Of a stretch of 45,387 nucleotides of DNA, positions 35,632 through 44,845 are shown piece after piece. The stretch spans positions 1-45,387 of the forward strand of contig CADDZF010000008.1 of NCBI GenBank assembly GCA_902812445.1, in the 5' to 3' direction. This stretch comes from Methylococcaceae bacterium. Lineage in GTDB: Bacteria; Pseudomonadota; Gammaproteobacteria; Methylococcales; Methylococcaceae. Position 1 is the stretch's first letter, and every line of letters begins with the position of its first letter. Made by a program: the position numbers and the translations under genes. A model generated the notes under the pieces. It did not search any database and was not told the origin of the DNA. It saw only the letters and a program-made list of their open reading frames with translations.

Positions 35632-37758
35632 TCAGGCTGCCTCCACCGTATCCCGCGAAGTGCGAAACGACGGGCTCGCGCTTTGTCCCAACACGATCAC
35701 GCGGTCGACCGAGGCGATGGTCTCGGGACGGTGAGCGATGATCACGCGCGTCAATTTGAGCTGCCGCACGGCCTCGTTCACCTGCTTTTCGCGGGCCACG
35801 TCTAGATGGCTCGTGGCCTCATCAAGAAACAGAATTTGTGGGTTTTTATACAGCGCCCGCGCCAGCAAAACGCGCTGTTTCTGGCCCCCTGAAAGCACCG
35901 TCCCCATGTCGCCGATGAGCGTGTTGTAGCCCATCGGCATCGCCATGATGTCCGGGTGAATGGCCGCCAGCCGGGCCGACCTTTCGATGTGTTCCTGATC
36001 GTATTCCGGCTCGAAAAAGCAGATGTTGTCGGCAATGGAGCCGGCGAATAGCTGATCTTCCTGCATTACCGCGCCGATCATCTCGCGGTAGTTTTGGACG
36101 CCCAGGCGCGATAGACCGAGGCCGCCGATCAGCACCTCGCCTGTGGTCGGCTGCAGCAGGCCGAGCATGATTTTGACCAGTGTCGTCTTGCCACAGCCGG
36201 AAGGCCCTACGATGGCCACCGATTCGCCGTCCTGGATGGTTAAATCCACGTTCTGCAGCACCGGCGGATCGGCCTCCGAATAGCGAAAGCTGAGCCCGCG
36301 CACCTCGATCGTCCCCGGCAAGGACGGGACTGCGGCCGCGACTTCGCCGGTCTCGGGATCGCTCAGGGCGATGTCGGCGACTCGCTCGGCGTGAAGGCCC
36401 AGCATCCTGAATTCAATGCCTTTTTCGATAAAGCTGATGATGCGGCTGGTGAACTGTTCCTTGAACGAGACGAAGGCGAACAGCATGCCGACGGAGAAGC
36501 CGCCGTCCAGCACCAGCCTGGCCCCCAGCCAGATCACGGCGGTGTTTTCGATGCCAAACAGTCCGCCGTTGAGCAAGCGGTACAGTATGCCCAGCTTCTG
36601 CACCCGAATCCCGGCGTTGAAATGATCAATCATCAGGTTCTTGTACGCGGTGTTGCGCTGAGGCTCGCGGTTGAACAGCTTGACGCTCTGCACGCCGCGC
36701 ACCGTCTCCAGCAGATTGGTCTGCTGCTTGGCGGCGCGCAGGATCTGCTCCTCGCTCGCCCGTCGCAGCGGCAGGAACAATCCCAGTCTAAGAAGTCCAT
36801 AGAGCGCTGCGGCGAAACACACGATCGCGGCCAGCTTCCAGCTATAAATCAGCATTATGGCCAGCGTACCCAGCGCCATGAAGCCATCGACGATGGCTTC
36901 GAGGAAGCTCGTGGTGAGCGTACGCTGAATGACGTTGAGCGATTCGAAGCGCGATACCACGTCGCCGAGATGGCGCTTTTCGAAAAAACTCATCGGCAGG
37001 CGCAGCAGATGGCGGAACAGATTGCTCATGAGCTGCAGGTTGAAGGTCGTGCTGAGCACCATCACCACCCAGGCGCGCAACGCCGTGACCCCCGCCTTGA
37101 TCAGGGCCAGCAGCAGGAAACCGGCGCCCAGCACCGCCAGCAAATCGCGGTCCTCGGCGACGATGGCGCTGTCCACGACCCATTGCATGAAAAATGGGCC
37201 GGCCGTGGCGAACACTTCGATGGCACCGGCCAACAAAAAGATTTGCAGGACCGCGCCGGCAGCGCCGGGCAGTCGGCCCAGGAGCTGTGACAACTTGATC
37301 GGACGGTGCTCGGTTTTTGGCGCAAAGTCGTGTGCCGGCGCCAGTTCCAGTGCGACGCCAGTAAAATGCTTGGACACTTCGGCGACACTCAGCAGCAGCC
37401 GGCCGCGGGCCGGGTCGTGGATGACGGCGGCACCGTTTTTGATCTGCGCCAGCACCACGAAGTGGTTGAAATCCCAGTGCAGGATCGCCGGCAGAGTCAA
37501 TTTATCCAGCTCGCCCAGTTCCATTTTGACCGGGCGCGACGATAGCTTGAGCTGAGCCGCGACGCTGATCAGATGACTCAGGCTGGTTCCCTTGAGTGAC
37601 GGCGAGTGGTTGCGGCGCAAACCGGCCAGATCGATGCGATAGCCGTGATAGGACGCCACCATCGCCAGGCAGGCGAGACCGCACTCGGTGGCTTCGCTCT
37701 GCAGGATCAGCGGTGTCCTGCGGCGGCCGGACAGATTGAGCGCGTGCTGAACAGCCAT
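35632..37758 (-). CDS. Peptidase-containing ABC transporter (C39 peptidase + TMD + NBD)
   Basis: C39 Cys motif ILQSEATECGLACLAMVASYHGY, His motif ILHWDFNHFVVL, HDPARG; Walker A GPSGCGKTTL; LSGGQKQRVLLARAL; FLDEATSHLD. Confidence 0.96.
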   Translation of the reverse strand: MAVQHALNLSGRRRTPLILQSEATECGLACLAMVASYHGYRIDLAGLRRNHSPSLKGTSLSHLISVAAQLKLSSRPVKMELGELDKLTLPAILHWDFNHFVVLAQIKNGAAVIHDPARGRLLLSVAEVSKHFTGVALELAPAHDFAPKTEHRPIKLSQLLGRLPGAAGAVLQIFLLAGAIEVFATAGPFFMQWVVDSAIVAEDRDLLAVLGAGFLLLALIKAGVTALRAWVVMVLSTTFNLQLMSNLFRHLLRLPMSFFEKRHLGDVVSRFESLNVIQRTLTTSFLEAIVDGFMALGTLAIMLIYSWKLAAIVCFAAALYGLLRLGLFLPLRRASEEQILRAAKQQTNLLETVRGVQSVKLFNREPQRNTAYKNLMIDHFNAGIRVQKLGILYRLLNGGLFGIENTAVIWLGARLVLDGGFSVGMLFAFVSFKEQFTSRIISFIEKGIEFRMLGLHAERVADIALSDPETGEVAAAVPSLPGTIEVRGLSFRYSEADPPVLQNVDLTIQDGESVAIVGPSGCGKTTLVKIMLGLLQPTTGEVLIGGLGLSRLGVQNYREMIGAVMQEDQLFAGSIADNICFFEPEYDQEHIERSARLAAIHPDIMAMPMGYNTLIGDMGTVLSGGQKQRVLLARALYKNPQILFLDEATSHLDVAREKQVNEAVRQLKLTRVIIAHRPETIASVDRVIVLGQSASPSFRTSRDTVEAA

Positions 37759-37760
37759 TC

Positions 37761-39008
37761 TTATAGACGTCCGCTAATGCTGTAGAGCGGATCGAACACC
37801 CAATCGATGATGCGTCGATGATCCAGCCAGATATCCGCATCCAGCAGCATGCCGGATTGCAGTGGAACGCGCTGTCGATAAACCTGCACCGCCTGCGCAT
37901 CCAGCGCGACGGTGATGCGATAGACGGATTCCTGCAGGTTCACCGGCAGATTGGCCTCGTTCGGGGTAATGAGCGTTTTGGAGATTTCTCGAATGCGTCC
38001 CCGCTGGCTGCCGAAGCGCTGATAGGGAAATGCCTGATAGCGCAGCGAAACGGTTTGCTGCGGCGCGATGAAGCCAATCGCGCGGGAAGGCACCAGAAGC
38101 TGCGCCTCCAGCTCGGCGCCCGCCGGCAAGATGGATAACAGGGGATTTGCGGTGTTGGCTTTCTGCCCCCGCTCGACCAGTATCGCGGTCACCGTGCCCT
38201 CGCCGGGCGCCGTAATGACGATATTACGCCGCGATTCGTATTCGGTGAGCTCTTGCTCCAGTGCCGAGATGTCCCGCTCGATGGCGGCGCGCTGATTGCT
38301 GAACTTCAGTTGGCTGGAGGCGAGCTGCAGCCGGGCCGAGCTCAGCTCCCGCTCCAGTTCCAAATGGCTGCGCTGGAGATTTTGCAGTTTGCCTTGCTGG
38401 TCGAGCAGTTCTTCGCGTCTTTTCTGAGCTTCAATTTCAGCGACGAATTTTTTTGCCAGCAGGTGCTGGTAGCGGCTTGCCATGTTCTCCGCGCTGGCCA
38501 GCCGTAGCAATTGCGTGGCGATTTCGGATGTGATGTGCGCCAGCTCGCGTTCCATGCCAGCGATGCGCTCCCCTAAGGCGCGGTACTCGATCTGATCAAT
38601 GCTCTGCTGTTTGGTCAGCTCTTCTTTCAGGCTGTCGCGTCGCTGCTTGAGCTGGGCGATGGCGCTAGCCTGGGCCTCGGGGGTCGCGCGCGAACTGCGC
38701 TCGGTGGACAGGATAAAAAGGGCATCGCCTTTTTTCACGCGCTGGCCTTCGCTGACATATTTTTCAATCAACGTTCCGGCCTCCGGCGCATAGACCTTGA
38801 TCAGACCCTTGCTGGGCGCCAGATAACCAGTCACGTGAGACTTGCGGGTATACTCGCCCCAAAAAGCGAATGCGACGAGCGCTGCCGCGATCGATAGGGC
38901 AACAGCAGTGAGAAAGGAGTAGGAAAGGTGACGTACCTGCATCACTTCGCCGAAAAGCCTCTCTTTCCTGAAATCGAGGGCTTCCTGCCGGAACAGATGA
39001 TGACTCAC
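37761..39008 (-). CDS. HlyD-family periplasmic adaptor of peptide exporter
   Basis: FRKERLFGEVMQVRHLSYSFLTAVALSIAAALVAFAFWGEYTRKSHVTGYLAPSKGLIKVYAPEAGTLIEKYVSEGQRVKKGDALFIL; coiled coil; adjacent to C39 transporter. Confidence 0.93.
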   Translation of the reverse strand: MSHHLFRQEALDFRKERLFGEVMQVRHLSYSFLTAVALSIAAALVAFAFWGEYTRKSHVTGYLAPSKGLIKVYAPEAGTLIEKYVSEGQRVKKGDALFILSTERSSRATPEAQASAIAQLKQRRDSLKEELTKQQSIDQIEYRALGERIAGMERELAHITSEIATQLLRLASAENMASRYQHLLAKKFVAEIEAQKRREELLDQQGKLQNLQRSHLELERELSSARLQLASSQLKFSNQRAAIERDISALEQELTEYESRRNIVITAPGEGTVTAILVERGQKANTANPLLSILPAGAELEAQLLVPSRAIGFIAPQQTVSLRYQAFPYQRFGSQRGRIREISKTLITPNEANLPVNLQESVYRITVALDAQAVQVYRQRVPLQSGMLLDADIWLDHRRIIDWVFDPLYSISGRL

Positions 39009-39056: not shown

Positions 39057-39491
39057 CTAGGTCGTCAGAACATCCGCCGCTCGGCGCATCACGGCGGACG
39101 GTTTCAGGTTATGGGTCACTACCTGAGGACAGCGCAGACACGCCGCACGGCCTTCCTGTTGCCACCAGCGGCAGTTCGGCCGGATCGAGCAGGCTGGCAG
39201 TCGCGACACTGCCACGGGCACCCAGCGCACCACCTTTTCTGCGAGCCGACACTTCGATTCCCCGCTCGCGAAATGCGCGCAGCCGCTGCAGGCGCACGGG
39301 GCGGCGAAGCGGAAGACCTCGGATGGCGCAACCGGTTTGGCCAGCGCCAGCAACTTCTCGGTCACCGGCTCGGCTGAGCTCAGATACGCCATTTCGGGCG
39401 CATCCGGAGTGCCGCCGACGACGCCGATCACCTTACTGCCTTCCCAATCCGGCTGGGCGCTGGGACACAGCGTCAGGTCTTGGTGGTTCAT
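39057..39491 (-). CDS. Conserved-looking Cys-rich protein (9 Cys), function unknown
   Basis: MNHQDLTLCPSAQPDWEGSKVIGVVGGTPDAPEMAYL...FRFAAPCACSGCAHFASGESKCRLAEKVVRWVPVAVSRLPACSIRPNCRWWQQEGRAACLRCPQVVTHN. Confidence 0.75.
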   Translation of the reverse strand: MNHQDLTLCPSAQPDWEGSKVIGVVGGTPDAPEMAYLSSAEPVTEKLLALAKPVAPSEVFRFAAPCACSGCAHFASGESKCRLAEKVVRWVPVAVSRLPACSIRPNCRWWQQEGRAACLRCPQVVTHNLKPSAVMRRAADVLTT

Positions 39492-39504: not shown

Positions 39505-39780
39505 TCAGGCGAATCCGGCAGAGGCAAAGCCTGCCGTTTCCACTACCGGCACGCTCAATCCGCCCTGTAAGCCCTGCAGAATATCGGGACGGATGCCCCC
39601 CGCGATGATGCCGATGTCCTTCGCAAAGGTATATCCGCCTCCACCGACCTCCTCCACTTCCTCCTCACTCAACTCGATGCCAGCGGCCTTGCGGGCGTCC
39701 AGTGCTCGTTCCACACCTTGAGCCGCTACGCGGACCAGATCGTCCATTGATATGCGCAATGATTTCCTATGGTTCGACAT
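39505..39780 (-). CDS. Putative double-glycine-leader peptide precursor (91 aa)
   Basis: GIELSEEEVEEVGGGG leader immediately before core YTFAKDIGIIAGGIRPDILQGLQGGLSVPVVETAGFASAGFA; AAGGAGAA ribosome-binding site; same strand as and upstream of HlyD/C39 exporter. Confidence 0.85.
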   Translation of the reverse strand: MSNHRKSLRISMDDLVRVAAQGVERALDARKAAGIELSEEEVEEVGGGGYTFAKDIGIIAGGIRPDILQGLQGGLSVPVVETAGFASAGFA

Positions 39781-39815: not shown

Positions 39816-40034
39816 TTACTGTCCGAATATCGCCGCTTGGGGCGGCAGAGGTTGTGGATTGAGCGCTACAGCATCAAGCTTGCTAATGAAATCAGCAGGA
39901 CGTATGTAGGGCCAGACCCAGCGGGGGAATGACGACAAGTCCTGATCGGGACCGATCAGCCCGCCGGCCACTTTTTCCAGATCACTGGCAGCGATGGGCG
40001 CCAAATCGCCGCTCATCCGTATTTGCTTACTCAT
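39816..40034 (-). CDS. Putative double-glycine-leader peptide precursor (72 aa) with LNPQPLPP motif
   Basis: IAASDLEKVAGG leader then LIGPDQDLSSFPRWVWPYIRPADFISKLDAVALNPQPLPPQAAIFGQ; GGAGAA RBS upstream. Confidence 0.82.
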   Translation of the reverse strand: MSKQIRMSGDLAPIAASDLEKVAGGLIGPDQDLSSFPRWVWPYIRPADFISKLDAVALNPQPLPPQAAIFGQ

Positions 40035-40260: not shown

Positions 40261-41325
40261 TTACCTTCGGCGGCAATGTCGATGTTGAACACGCGCTTCA
40301 AGCGCTACACCCAGCTCATCGCCGCCTGCCGCTCGGCGGGTGTTGGGTTGGCGGCCTCGTTTGGCGCTTTGGCCTTGTTGCCTTTGCCGCGTTTGGCTGG
40401 TGTCACCCGCGCGGTGCTTAACTGTTCGGGGGAACACCCCATGGAAGCGGGTGAGGTTCACCCTGGGCTTCGGGATCAGGGCAGCTAGCCGGGCGCTAAA
40501 GTCCTACGGTTCGACAAAATCGCCGGGAGCGATTTTGAACAGCCGAAGGCTGGCCCGCAGGGCAGGAGGCCCGGAGTCACATCACATGTGTCGTCCCATC
40601 CCGGTAGGGTGTCTTCAGTTGATAGCGGATGTTGCCGACTTCGGTCAGTGAGAAGCGCTTTTCGGAAGACCGCCGGACGGCTGACGTAACGACACAGCCG
40701 TTTCCGCTTGGCTCGTTCATTCGCTTTGGCCGCCACACCGACATGCAGGGAAAAGCCGGCTACCTTGCCCGCCGTGTCCATGATGGAATCGTACGGATCG
40801 CAGACCGGCAGCATTTGCAGGGTAAACACCTTGGGACCTTGCTGGGGTCCCACGGGAATGCGGCATGTAATGGAATGTCCCAGCAGTTGATCCATCGGCC
40901 CGTCATCCACGGCCTCCGAGGCGAGATAGCTGTTCTCCGCATCCCGCTCCAATAGCCCTTCCCGTTCCAGAAAGCGGGCAATGCGCACGGCGATGGTCTG
41001 GGCCAGTTGCGTGAATTCGTCCCGGCTCAAGCGCCTTGGCCCAGCGAAACCGGGCTGCCGATCCGTTGGCGCCATCGAGATAAACACCATCCAGAAACAG
41101 CATATGGAAGTGAATATTCAGGTTGAGTGCGGATCCAAACCGCTGGATCAATGTGATGGTACCGGTTTGTGCCGTGGCCCGGGTATAGCCGGCTTTTTTC
41201 GTCAGATGTGCGGCGATGACGCGGTAGACGATGCCCAGCACCTGGCCTATGATCGCCGGCCGGCTGGCAAACAGAAACCGGAGCGGGAAAGGCACACTGA
41301 GCACCCTTTGCCGCATGTTTGTCCG
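40261..41325 (-). pseudogene. IS91-family transposase remnant, truncated and frameshifted
   Basis: Fragments in several minus frames: [131 protein letters not shown]. Confidence 0.88.
40515..40579. repeat. About 65-bp insert within the IS91 transposase remnant, containing a 9-bp perfect hairpin
   Basis: CAAAATCGC cggga GCGATTTTG followed by agccgaaggct; separates the THVM and FEP coding segments of the transposase. Confidence 0.5.
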
Positions 41326-41341
41326 TCAATGCCATTCTAGA

Positions 41342-41725
41342 AGGCATGACCTGGCTCGGTCATGCCTACGACGAAGGCCCTTTCTATCAGAGCCAGCGGT
41401 TTGATCGCTACAAATCGCTACAAAAAGGTGATCCAAACTTTATTGGATCAAGGCAAGGCGTATCATTGTTATTGCATCAAAGAAGAGCTTGAAGCGCTGC
41501 GGGCTCAGCAAATGGCACGCAAGGAAAAACCCCGTTATACCGGGATATGCCGCAGCCGTACCGAACCCCGCGAAGGCGTGGAGCCGGTGGTGCGCTTTCG
41601 CAGTCCGGATGAAGGCGAGGTGGTGACCGACGATGTGGTCAGGGGCCGAGTTGTTTTCCAAAACAAGCAATTGGATGATTTGATCATCATGCGCTCCGAC
41701 GGGACGCCGACCTATAATCTCACGG
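41342..41725 (+). pseudogene. gltX: Glutamyl-tRNA synthetase internal fragment
   Basis: [25 protein letters not shown] then, after a frameshift, [101 protein letters not shown]; lacks both ends of the enzyme. Confidence 0.9.
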
Positions 41726-41798
41726 TCGACACCCATCCCGCTGAAGTGAGGCGACCTTTGTATGTCTGGAAAACGCGCCAGATGATTTCGGAGTCCGG

Positions 41799-42413
41799 GT
41801 GACCCAATCACGCAACCGGCAAAATGTGGTGAACTTGGAAGATTTCGCCGCGCTCGCTGAGCGCCAGTTGATGTGACAGCAAACATTACAGATGGCCGGC
41901 ATCGAGTATCTAGTCGAGCGCGGCGAAGACGATTCAGCGCTGTCGGATAAGTGTTTCAGCACTCGTGAGGCTGCTCCCATTCTGGCATGCACAGTAATAT
42001 CAGCGAATTGGCACGAGTTTGTCGTTGCAGCCAAAGGCGACAAGAAGAGGCTGTTCGGGCGAGAGGGATTTGTTGTCTCGACTGATCCCTTCCGTAAAGC
42101 CTATGAGCAGCTTTTTCCCGATTTGCTGACTGGGCGGCAGCTTTGGAGAACGGTTCAGGTCGGCAGGATCGTGCAATCATGGATTCGAGACAGGGCAGCC
42201 TCGGAGCCGGATCCCAAGATTCTGCCTGAGGATGTTCTTCCGGCGAGAGAAATTCTGAGGCATGCCGCATGGTTACTGTTGCATATTTTGTTTAGACGGC
42301 CGCAGCTGCAAAACGGTCCGACCTTGGAATTGACAGAAGACGAGCTTAATAAATTATCGATGGAGATGGATATCGTTGCTCAAAAGCTGGTGGAAGTGCC
42401 TCAGGCTATTTAA
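41799..42413 (+). pseudogene. C-terminal fragment resembling AIPR-family (abortive infection phage resistance) protein, interrupted by in-frame TGA
   Basis: [25 protein letters not shown](TGA)QQTLQMAGIEYLVERGEDDSAL...REAAPILACTVISANWHEFVVAAKGDKKRLFGREG, one frame with TGA at 41874-41876. Family assignment from memory of AIPR motifs. Confidence 0.5.
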
Positions 42414-42511: not shown

Positions 42512-44212
42512 GTGATGACGAAGCAAAAACTGGAACTCACTTGGATTGGCAAGGAAAAACGGCCCCAACTGGAGCCGCGTATCCTGCTCGAAGATCCGGA
42601 AAAGTCCTACCATGCCAAGCATCGGGTTTCGGATAACGACATTTTCGACAACCGGCTGATCTTCGGGGACAACCTACTGGCGCTCAAGGCATTGGAGCAG
42701 GAGTTCACCGGCAAGGTGAAATGCGTGTTCATCGATCCGCCTTACAACACCGGCAGCGCGTTCGCGCATTACGACGACGGGCTGGAGCATTCGATCTGGC
42801 TGGGGCTGATGCGGGACCGGCTGGAGATCATCCGGCGCTTGCTGGCGGAGGATGGATCGCTGTGGATCACGATTGACGACAACGAAGCTCACTACCTTAA
42901 GCTGCTCTGCGACGAGATATTTGGCCGACAGAACTTCATTGCTTCAAACATTTGGCAGAAGAGATATTCACGAGAGAATAGAGAGGCGATCGGAGATGCA
43001 CATGACTATGTTTTCCTATTTGCGAAGAACGCTGAACGTTTCAAGGCTATTCGCAATCGGGTACCAATAAGCGAAGAGCAGGCAAAGGTCTACAAGAACC
43101 CAAACAATCATCCACGTGGTCGTTGGCGTCCTATTCCAATGACTGCGCAAGGATATCGACCGAACCAGATGTACGAGATCGTTGCGCCGGGTGGCGCTGT
43201 GCATCGACCACCCGAAGGACGTTGCTGGTCCACGATAGAAAGCGAGTTCCTAAAGTTGCGAAACGCTGGCCGAATCTACTTCGGCAAGGACGGTAACAGC
43301 CAGCCAAACATCATTCGCTTCTTGGATGAGGTTGAAGGTATGGTGCCTTGGACATGGTGGCCGCACGAGGAAGTGGGCCACACGGACGAAGCGAAGAAGG
43401 AAATGCACGCGCTGTTCGGAAAGGGCGACCCGTTTGTTACACCGAAACCAGAGAGACTGATCGCGCGCGTTCTCCACATTGCCACAAACGCCGGAGACCT
43501 CGTCCTCGACTCCTTCGCCGGCTCCGGCACCACCGGCGCGGTCGCCCACAAAATGGGCCGCCGCTGGATCATGGTGGAGTTGGGCGAACATTGCCACTCG
43601 CATGTTATCCCGCGCCTGAAGAAGGTGATTGACGGCGATGACAAGGGCGGCATCTCCGAAAGCGTCGGCTGGAAGGGTGGTGGCGGCTTCCGTTACTACA
43701 CCCTTGCTCCTTCCCTGATCGTCAATGATCGCTGGGGCAACCCGGTCATCAATCCCGAATACAACCCGGCACAACTGGCCGAGGCGCTGTGCAAGCTGGA
43801 AGGCTTCAGCTACGCGCCTTCGGAGATGCACTGGTGGCAGCACGGCCACTCCAGCGAGCGCGATTTTCTGTTCGTCACCACGCAAAACCTGTCTGCCGAC
43901 CAGTTGCAGGCCCTATCCGATGAAGTCGGCCCCGAGCAGAGTCTGCTGGTATGCTGCTCGGCCTTCCGCGGCGTGACGGCGGCCAAGGCATCGCAACGCT
44001 GGCCCAACCTGACGCTGAAGAAGATTCCCAAGATGGTGCTGGCCCGCTGCGAGTGGGGCCATGACGATTACAGCTTGAACGTTTCGAATCTGCCCATGGC
44101 GACAACGTCTCCCCCGACGGCTATCCCGGCAGCGGACGATGGGCGACGGGCGGCCAGGCGCAAAGAGACCGCGCCCGGGCAAGGTGCGCTATTCGAGGAG
44201 GACAAGGTGTGA
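42512..44212 (+). CDS. Site-specific DNA methyltransferase, type III-like Mod (beta class order)
   Basis: FIDPPYNTGSAFAHYDDGLEHSIWLGLMRDRLEIIRRLLAEDGSLWITIDDNEAHYLK; later DLVLDSFAGSGTTGAVAHKMGRRWIMVELG. Confidence 0.95.
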   Translation: MMTKQKLELTWIGKEKRPQLEPRILLEDPEKSYHAKHRVSDNDIFDNRLIFGDNLLALKALEQEFTGKVKCVFIDPPYNTGSAFAHYDDGLEHSIWLGLMRDRLEIIRRLLAEDGSLWITIDDNEAHYLKLLCDEIFGRQNFIASNIWQKRYSRENREAIGDAHDYVFLFAKNAERFKAIRNRVPISEEQAKVYKNPNNHPRGRWRPIPMTAQGYRPNQMYEIVAPGGAVHRPPEGRCWSTIESEFLKLRNAGRIYFGKDGNSQPNIIRFLDEVEGMVPWTWWPHEEVGHTDEAKKEMHALFGKGDPFVTPKPERLIARVLHIATNAGDLVLDSFAGSGTTGAVAHKMGRRWIMVELGEHCHSHVIPRLKKVIDGDDKGGISESVGWKGGGGFRYYTLAPSLIVNDRWGNPVINPEYNPAQLAEALCKLEGFSYAPSEMHWWQHGHSSERDFLFVTTQNLSADQLQALSDEVGPEQSLLVCCSAFRGVTAAKASQRWPNLTLKKIPKMVLARCEWGHDDYSLNVSNLPMATTSPPTAIPAADDGRRAARRKETAPGQGALFEEDKV

Positions 44213-44499
44213 AACGCGATCAGGCACTATCGCTGCTGGCGCGCAGCAAGCCCGTGCTGGCCGAGCGTTATGGGGTCACCCGGCTGGCCCTGTTCGGCTC
44301 CACCGCGCGCGATTCGGCGCGCCCGGACAGCGATGTGGACGTGCTGGTAGCCTTCGATGGCGCGGCCGGTTCCGCGCGCTACTTCGGCGTCCAGTTCTAT
44401 CTGGAGGACGCTTTGGGTTGTCCGGTCGACCTGGTCACGGAAAAAGCGTTGCGCAAGGAGCTGCGCCCGTCCATCGAGCGGGAGGCCGTCGATGTCTGA
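44209..44499 (+). CDS. mntA: MntA-type minimal nucleotidyltransferase antitoxin
   Basis: GSTARDSARPDSDVDVLVAFDG matches GSX10DXD; GTG start overlapping the mod stop by 4 bp. Confidence 0.9.
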   Translation: MKRDQALSLLARSKPVLAERYGVTRLALFGSTARDSARPDSDVDVLVAFDGAAGSARYFGVQFYLEDALGCPVDLVTEKALRKELRPSIEREAVDV

Positions 44500-44845
44500 C
44501 GCCACGCCGCGCGAGTGGCGCTTTTATCTGGACGATATGATCGGCTTTGCCGAAAAGGTGCTGGCCTATACCCATGGCCTCGATCAGGCCGCTTTCGAGG
44601 CCAGCGGACTCAACTATGACGCCACGCTGCGCAATCTGGAACTGATCGGCGAAGCGGCGATGCACATTCCGGAATCGGTGCGACAGACCCATCCGGAGAT
44701 TCCATGGCGCATGATCGTCGCCACCCGAAATCGCCTGATTCATGGCTATCTCGGCATCGATAATGACACTGTGTGGAGCATCGTCGAGGACGATGTGCCG
44801 AATCTTCTGCAACAATTGAAGCTGATGCGGGAGAAGTCGGCATGA
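44492..44845 (+). CDS. hepT: HepT-like HEPN ribonuclease toxin
   Basis: MSDATPREWRFYLDDMIGFAEKVLAYTHGLDQAAFEASGLNYDATLRNLELIGEAAMHIP...ATRNRLIHGYLGIDNDTVWSIV; RNRLIHGY matches RX4HXY. Start reassigned from the ORF track; overlaps mntA by 8 bp. Confidence 0.92.
   Translation: MSDATPREWRFYLDDMIGFAEKVLAYTHGLDQAAFEASGLNYDATLRNLELIGEAAMHIPESVRQTHPEIPWRMIVATRNRLIHGYLGIDNDTVWSIVEDDVPNLLQQLKLMREKSA

Follow-up and report, generated by a model that had tools for sequence, protein, structure and literature searches.

The 72-residue peptide p1, encoded on the minus strand of the window (the whole 45,387-nucleotide stretch of DNA that was analysed), is probably an exported double-glycine (GG) peptide whose core ends in a modular tail held by selection. 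Its precursor gene heads a conserved cassette with a C39 peptidase exporter, and its tail carries the octapeptide LNPQPLPP, which looks like a reusable tail and not the badge of one peptide family. The cassette family with its Cys-rich member p3, a group of GG peptides from Bradyrhizobium and the quantified recurrence of LNPQPLPP are new; a full-text literature search found no paper on the motif.

The p1 precursor

The open reading frame at 39816..40034 (minus strand, read from 40034 to 39816) translates to 72 residues (MSKQIRMSGDLAPIAASDLEKVAGG/LIGPDQDLSSFPRWVWPYIRPADFISKLDAVALNPQPLPPQAAIFGQ) and has a GGAG ribosome-binding site upstream of its start (ATGGAGAATAGCT-ATG), confirming the predicted precursor with LNPQPLPP and a Trp/Pro-rich core. 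A simple scan revealed no sigma-70-type promoter for the cassette. Residues 1-25 (39960..40034, minus strand) read as a leader ending ASDLEKVAGG, with I at -12, D at -8, L at -7, V at -4 and G at -2 and -1. The GG end and the hydrophobic residues at -4, -7 and -12 fit the double-glycine leader pattern of PMC2887384. The predicted core, residues 26-72, comprises 47 aa with no Cys, eight Pro, two Trp and few Ser or Thr; it is acidic (pI 4.6), and the cores of the cassette orthologs lie mostly near 10. Two parts can be told apart in it: a block at residues 26-47 (LIGPDQDLSSFPRWVWPYIRPA; 39894..39959, minus strand), defined by the alignment of p1 orthologs, and a window-specific tail at residues 53-72 (LDAVALNPQPLPPQAAIFGQ; 39819..39878, minus strand), in which LNPQPLPP occupies residues 58-65 (39841..39864, minus strand). 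Neither p1 nor its neighbour p2 matched Pfam or NCBIfam above cut-off, and neither has a nitrile-hydratase- or Nif11-like leader. Searches of plasmids by tblastn with p1 and with two motif-bearing GG peptides gave no match.

A conserved five-gene cassette

On the minus strand, p1 is the first of five genes in the order p1, p2, p3, HlyD-like adaptor and C39 ABC exporter. The p2 gene (39505..39780) encodes a second small GG peptide of 91 aa, with a leader ending VEEVGGGG and a Gly-rich core, and is kept in all eight cassettes. It is followed by the 144-aa, Cys-rich p3 (39057..39491), by a 415-aa HlyD-like membrane-fusion adaptor (37761..39008; PF13437, E 7e-14) and by a 708-aa C39 peptidase-containing ABC exporter (PCAT; 35632..37758; PF03412, E 6e-37, with PF00664 and PF00005), all on the same strand. 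The catalytic residues of the C39 domain are present at the expected places (Cys26, His99 and Asp115). We found no outer-membrane channel gene in the cassette and, p3 aside, saw no modification enzyme there.

Among 100 relatives searched, p1 was detected in eight genomes, all from a single further genus in this order, and the gene order is intact in every one of them, with 67-72% identity to the window cassette for the exporter and 63-69% for p3. The p1 orthologs (seven distinct sequences) retain the 25-residue leader and the block LIGPDQDLSxFPRxxWPxINPG, in which D32, L33, F36, P37, W41, P42, I44 and P46 are invariant; one has a leader that ends in GA, not GG. They stop about ten residues before window p1, and LNPQPLPP occurs in none of the seven distinct sequences aligned, so that within the cassette family the LNPQPLPP tail belongs to window p1 alone. 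Because the orthologs keep leader and block without the motif, the Trp/Pro block is the conserved core of the p1 family, and LNPQPLPP in the window lineage would, judging from this alignment, be either an addition or a unique retention. The original prediction of an exported-type peptide beside a C39 exporter is supported by the canonical spacing of the leader, the C39 triad, the adaptor and exporter genes on the same strand and the retention of the cassette.

With a C39 ABC exporter bearing catalytic Cys, His and Asp near p1, the cassette is a double-glycine/PCAT peptide system in the tested features. It shares the GG leader and the C39 peptidase-ABC protein with catalytic Cys with systems of the colicin V/CvaB and microcin type, and the HlyD-type adaptor with Gram-negative type I systems. 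EbfG1-4/PteB of Synechococcus elongatus (PMC4997328), which served as the PCAT comparison, is likewise similar in GG leader and C39 peptidase-ABC protein. Unlike in these PCAT systems, there is an additional Cys-rich p3 in the window; the peptide sequences are unrelated to theirs, and export in the window is a prediction. The NHLM/NHLP export cluster (PMC2887384; Haft et al. 2010) also combines a C39 exporter, HlyD and GG precursors, and has p3 homologs beside NHLP clusters and one Bradyrhizobium LNPQPLPP peptide beside an NHLM cluster. However, its second ABC gene is not present in the cassette, and the p1 leader has 25 residues and is not nitrile-hydratase-like. We rejected the cassette as an NHLM system, as its exporter (487.8 bits versus a TIGR03796 cut-off of 853.3) and adaptor (64.9 bits versus 156.2 for TIGR03794, and also under the TIGR01843 cut-off) fall below curated thresholds.

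The host order is inferred to be methane-oxidising, since four of the six relatives tested, from the same order or family, carry PmoA/AmoA-family genes; none was seen in the genome of the window itself. Just upstream of the cassette (40903-41802), the minus strand has the remnant of a Y2-type transposase and the plus strand a truncated piece of a glutamyl/glutaminyl-tRNA synthetase gene, which suggests a past insertion or recombination at this site. Further along, the window encodes an N6/N4 DNA methylase about as large as the Mod subunit of a type III restriction-modification system (42512-44212; PF01555) and a nucleotidyltransferase with a HepT-like RNase, together an MntA/HepT-type toxin-antitoxin pair (44209-44845).

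The Cys-rich companion p3

The p3 protein, which has no match in Pfam, NCBIfam, PHROG or PDB sequences, tracks small-peptide cassettes across several phyla. Its homologs are few and scattered (7 of 399 phylum genomes, the window's own included) and also occur on plasmids of Nostoc, Agrobacterium, Streptomyces, Spirosoma and Polymorphobacter. A small ORF directly adjoins the p3 homolog in most loci read: in Spirosoma the neighbours are a GG peptide and NHLP exporters, and in Nostoc an NHLP-leader precursor, with genes for a SagB-type dehydrogenase and a radical SAM protein nearby. Within 250 bases of a motif ORF, p3 was found in 2 of the 116 motif stretches listed (L074 and L108), versus 0.004 expected if p3 were as dense as in phylum genomes (taking 3.7 Mb as the average size), with L108 coming from another phylum. 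The L108 copy is apparently frameshifted, and the motif in L074 stands at the end of a peptide with a p2-like N-terminus.

This N-terminus (IsxeELxxxAxxgvxxaL) recurs in p3 partner ORFs (L074, L141, L144, L146 and L147), and in L148 a small peptide with a leader ending VDQVSGAG lies directly 3' of the p3 homolog. An AlphaFold model of p3 built from two sequences was unusable (pLDDT 35). By its company, p3 would be an accessory of peptide cassettes that perhaps binds metal and serves in maturation, in immunity or as a chaperone.

Recurrence of LNPQPLPP

LNPQPLPP occurs once in the window, with no occurrence in 100 shuffles, and once in the whole source genome. Among 349 phylum genomes, its own included, the back-translated pattern gave ten matches, compared with none for the reversed pattern, none for the codon-permuted pattern and one for the reversed codon-permuted pattern. 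An unbiased pattern scan of genome contigs yielded at least 116 stretches with the motif from many phyla. The 134 matches listed comprise 115 distinct 24-mer DNA spellings and, because the spelling varies in nearly every match, the motif is conserved at the peptide level. We rejected a phage-borne origin, there being no excess in viral contigs (15 vs 12).

The carriers are mostly unrelated proteins among the matches listed. Of 58 clear ORFs listed, 22 have the motif no more than 30 residues from the C-terminus, versus 7.7 expected. Its settings include C-terminal tails (also of membrane proteins), linkers of 2-oxoacid dehydrogenase E2-like or acyltransferase-like proteins, tandem repeats, and mature N-termini right after Sec, Tat or lipoprotein signals. 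The suggested recurrence in small proteins of diverse bacteria thus holds for the diversity, at a frequency above chance, and not for a restriction to small proteins. GG-leader peptides number about three among the 116 stretches listed (L020, L059 and L125), and a C39 domain or close HlyD homolog was found in none of them, the stretches being 8-kb tiles not centred on the motif, in which distant neighbours would be missed. By a looser count, 2 of 41 small motif ORFs listed have a GG leader versus 15 of 5,821 (Fisher p 0.006, on small numbers), a suggestive excess. Most carriers among the matches listed therefore lack both GG leader and exporter neighbour, the outcome that had been named in advance as speaking against LNPQPLPP as a marker of exported peptides. 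That claim fails in general, also in view of the motif-free orthologs of p1, and survives in a narrower form in Bradyrhizobium.

A separate, widespread family of 144-160 aa (IIGKRxPAIxDVIPRGP...VALNPQPLPP) has a conserved VALNPQPLPP and no Pfam match (L032, L046, L080, L100 and L153-L155), and comes mainly from rhizobia (Mesorhizobium, L032) and actinobacteria among the matches listed. It is like p1 in VALNPQPLPP, but longer and without a GG leader; its profile match to p1, 28 columns around the motif only, was not accepted as a sign of common descent.

GG peptides with the motif in Bradyrhizobium

Starting from L059, we reached a Bradyrhizobium GG-leader family whose eight copies, 57-62 aa long, are spread over 6 of 149 genomes and have the leader ELDRVAGG and the core II(I/V)VSGLQHRFTSALDRVALNPQPLPPKVFxFG; a seventh genome has a weak match with internal stop codons. 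All combine a GG leader with a C-terminal [LIF][DE]xVALNPQPLPP (alignment A1). Across the eight copies, the ten codons of VALNPQPLPP show 101 synonymous and no non-synonymous pairwise differences, versus 80 synonymous and 104 non-synonymous differences in the last ten leader codons. A query without the motif recovered the identical eight copies and no member lacking it, which shows that the choice of query did not create the invariance. VALNPQPLPP is thus under purifying selection in these peptides.

One copy (L176) lies on the same strand and 3' of NHLM_ABC1 (1034 bits), NHLM_ABC2 (850 bits) and a cyc_nuc_ocin (bacteriocin-type) transport-associated gene; no C39 exporter was seen near the other seven within the roughly 6 kb read. 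NHLM_ABC1 was found in all six carrier genomes (five over cut-off, one partial match on a short contig) and, over cut-off, in three of six non-carrier genomes. Run against 308 Hyphomicrobiales and 274 class-mate genomes, the A1 profile returned no further GG peptide. Also in Bradyrhizobium, near-identical GG peptides ending STVMCPW lie near NHLM exporters (L193 1523-1843 and L199 13282-13608). The window tail KLDAVALNPQPLPPQAAIFGQ can be aligned with the Bradyrhizobium tail, the two having about 12 strongly matching residues in common. With so few strong matches and so common a motif, independent origin and transfer of the tail are indistinguishable.

Proposed mechanism and alternative explanations

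In the reading that we favour, p1 would be a ribosomally made double-glycine-leader peptide whose 25-residue leader is most likely cut off after VAGG by the C39 domain of the neighbouring exporter; the exporter, the HlyD-like adaptor and an outer-membrane channel would then secrete the 47-residue core, along with p2. Cleavage and export are the default expectation because of the established biology of C39 exporters (PMC6363468, PMC6959990 and PMC4997328). The core would consist of two pieces, the cassette block IGPDQDLSxFPRxxWPxIxP and a C-terminal LDxVALNPQPLPPxxxxFG tail that the window lineage appears to have in common with the Bradyrhizobium GG peptides and not with its own cassette orthologs. 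Presumably held by selection, this tail most likely serves for docking, as a short segment in an extended (polyproline-type) conformation, and many bacterial proteins may have acquired the same segment independently, in linkers or at their ends. For such peptides there are precedents for roles as bacteriocins, as signals and in biofilms. EbfG1-4 illustrate that GG peptides of this kind need not be toxins (PMC4997328).

Alternatively, disordered Pro-rich tails and linkers could simply favour the sequence LNPQPLPP, which in p1 would be a neutral extension that contributes to neither export nor activity. We consider this possible but rather unlikely: it would suit the unrelated settings of the motif, from E2-like linkers and membrane-protein tails to tandem repeats and positions after Sec, Tat or lipoprotein signals, as well as the p1 orthologs that manage without it and the single sequence known in the window lineage, but strict identity of eight residues across phyla, spelled in so many ways among the matches listed, exceeds what composition would give, hardly any match is seen for the permuted or reversed patterns, and purifying selection is complete in the Bradyrhizobium peptides. 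It is very improbable that p1 and the latter belong to a single family, whether through descent over their full length or through horizontal transfer, with the tail lost from the methane-oxidiser orthologs. A tblastn match of p1 to L176 (E 1e-8, residues 18-72) points that way, as does a 57-column match of p1 to the A1 profile, which is inflated by p1 itself being a row of A1. Yet the likeness is confined to leader and motif, the IGPDQDLSxFPRxxWPxIxP block is not found in Bradyrhizobium, and a single exporter with HlyD in the window stands against a two-ABC NHLM system.

We give as little credence to a RiPP pathway in which p1 and p2 are substrates and p3 the maturase. Homologs of p3 do adjoin NHLP-leader and GG peptides, in Nostoc with SagB-type dehydrogenase and radical SAM genes nearby, but the p1 core offers no Cys and few Ser or Thr, and p3 matches no enzyme family, has no usable model and is accompanied by no other modification enzyme in the cassette. 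A more speculative extension, which we think a long shot, would make LNPQPLPP a portable motif, recognised outside the cell or in the periplasm by one conserved partner in many bacteria and grafted onto GG peptides (window p1, the Bradyrhizobium family and the p2-like peptide of L074) and onto Sec- and Tat-exported proteins.

For the exported GG peptide with a modular tail, the reading that we prefer, a loosely described motif has become a set of testable facts: a string held letter for letter by selection in peptides with an export signal and, in one lineage, joined to another peptide core. Its companion p3 could guide the search for new exported peptides.
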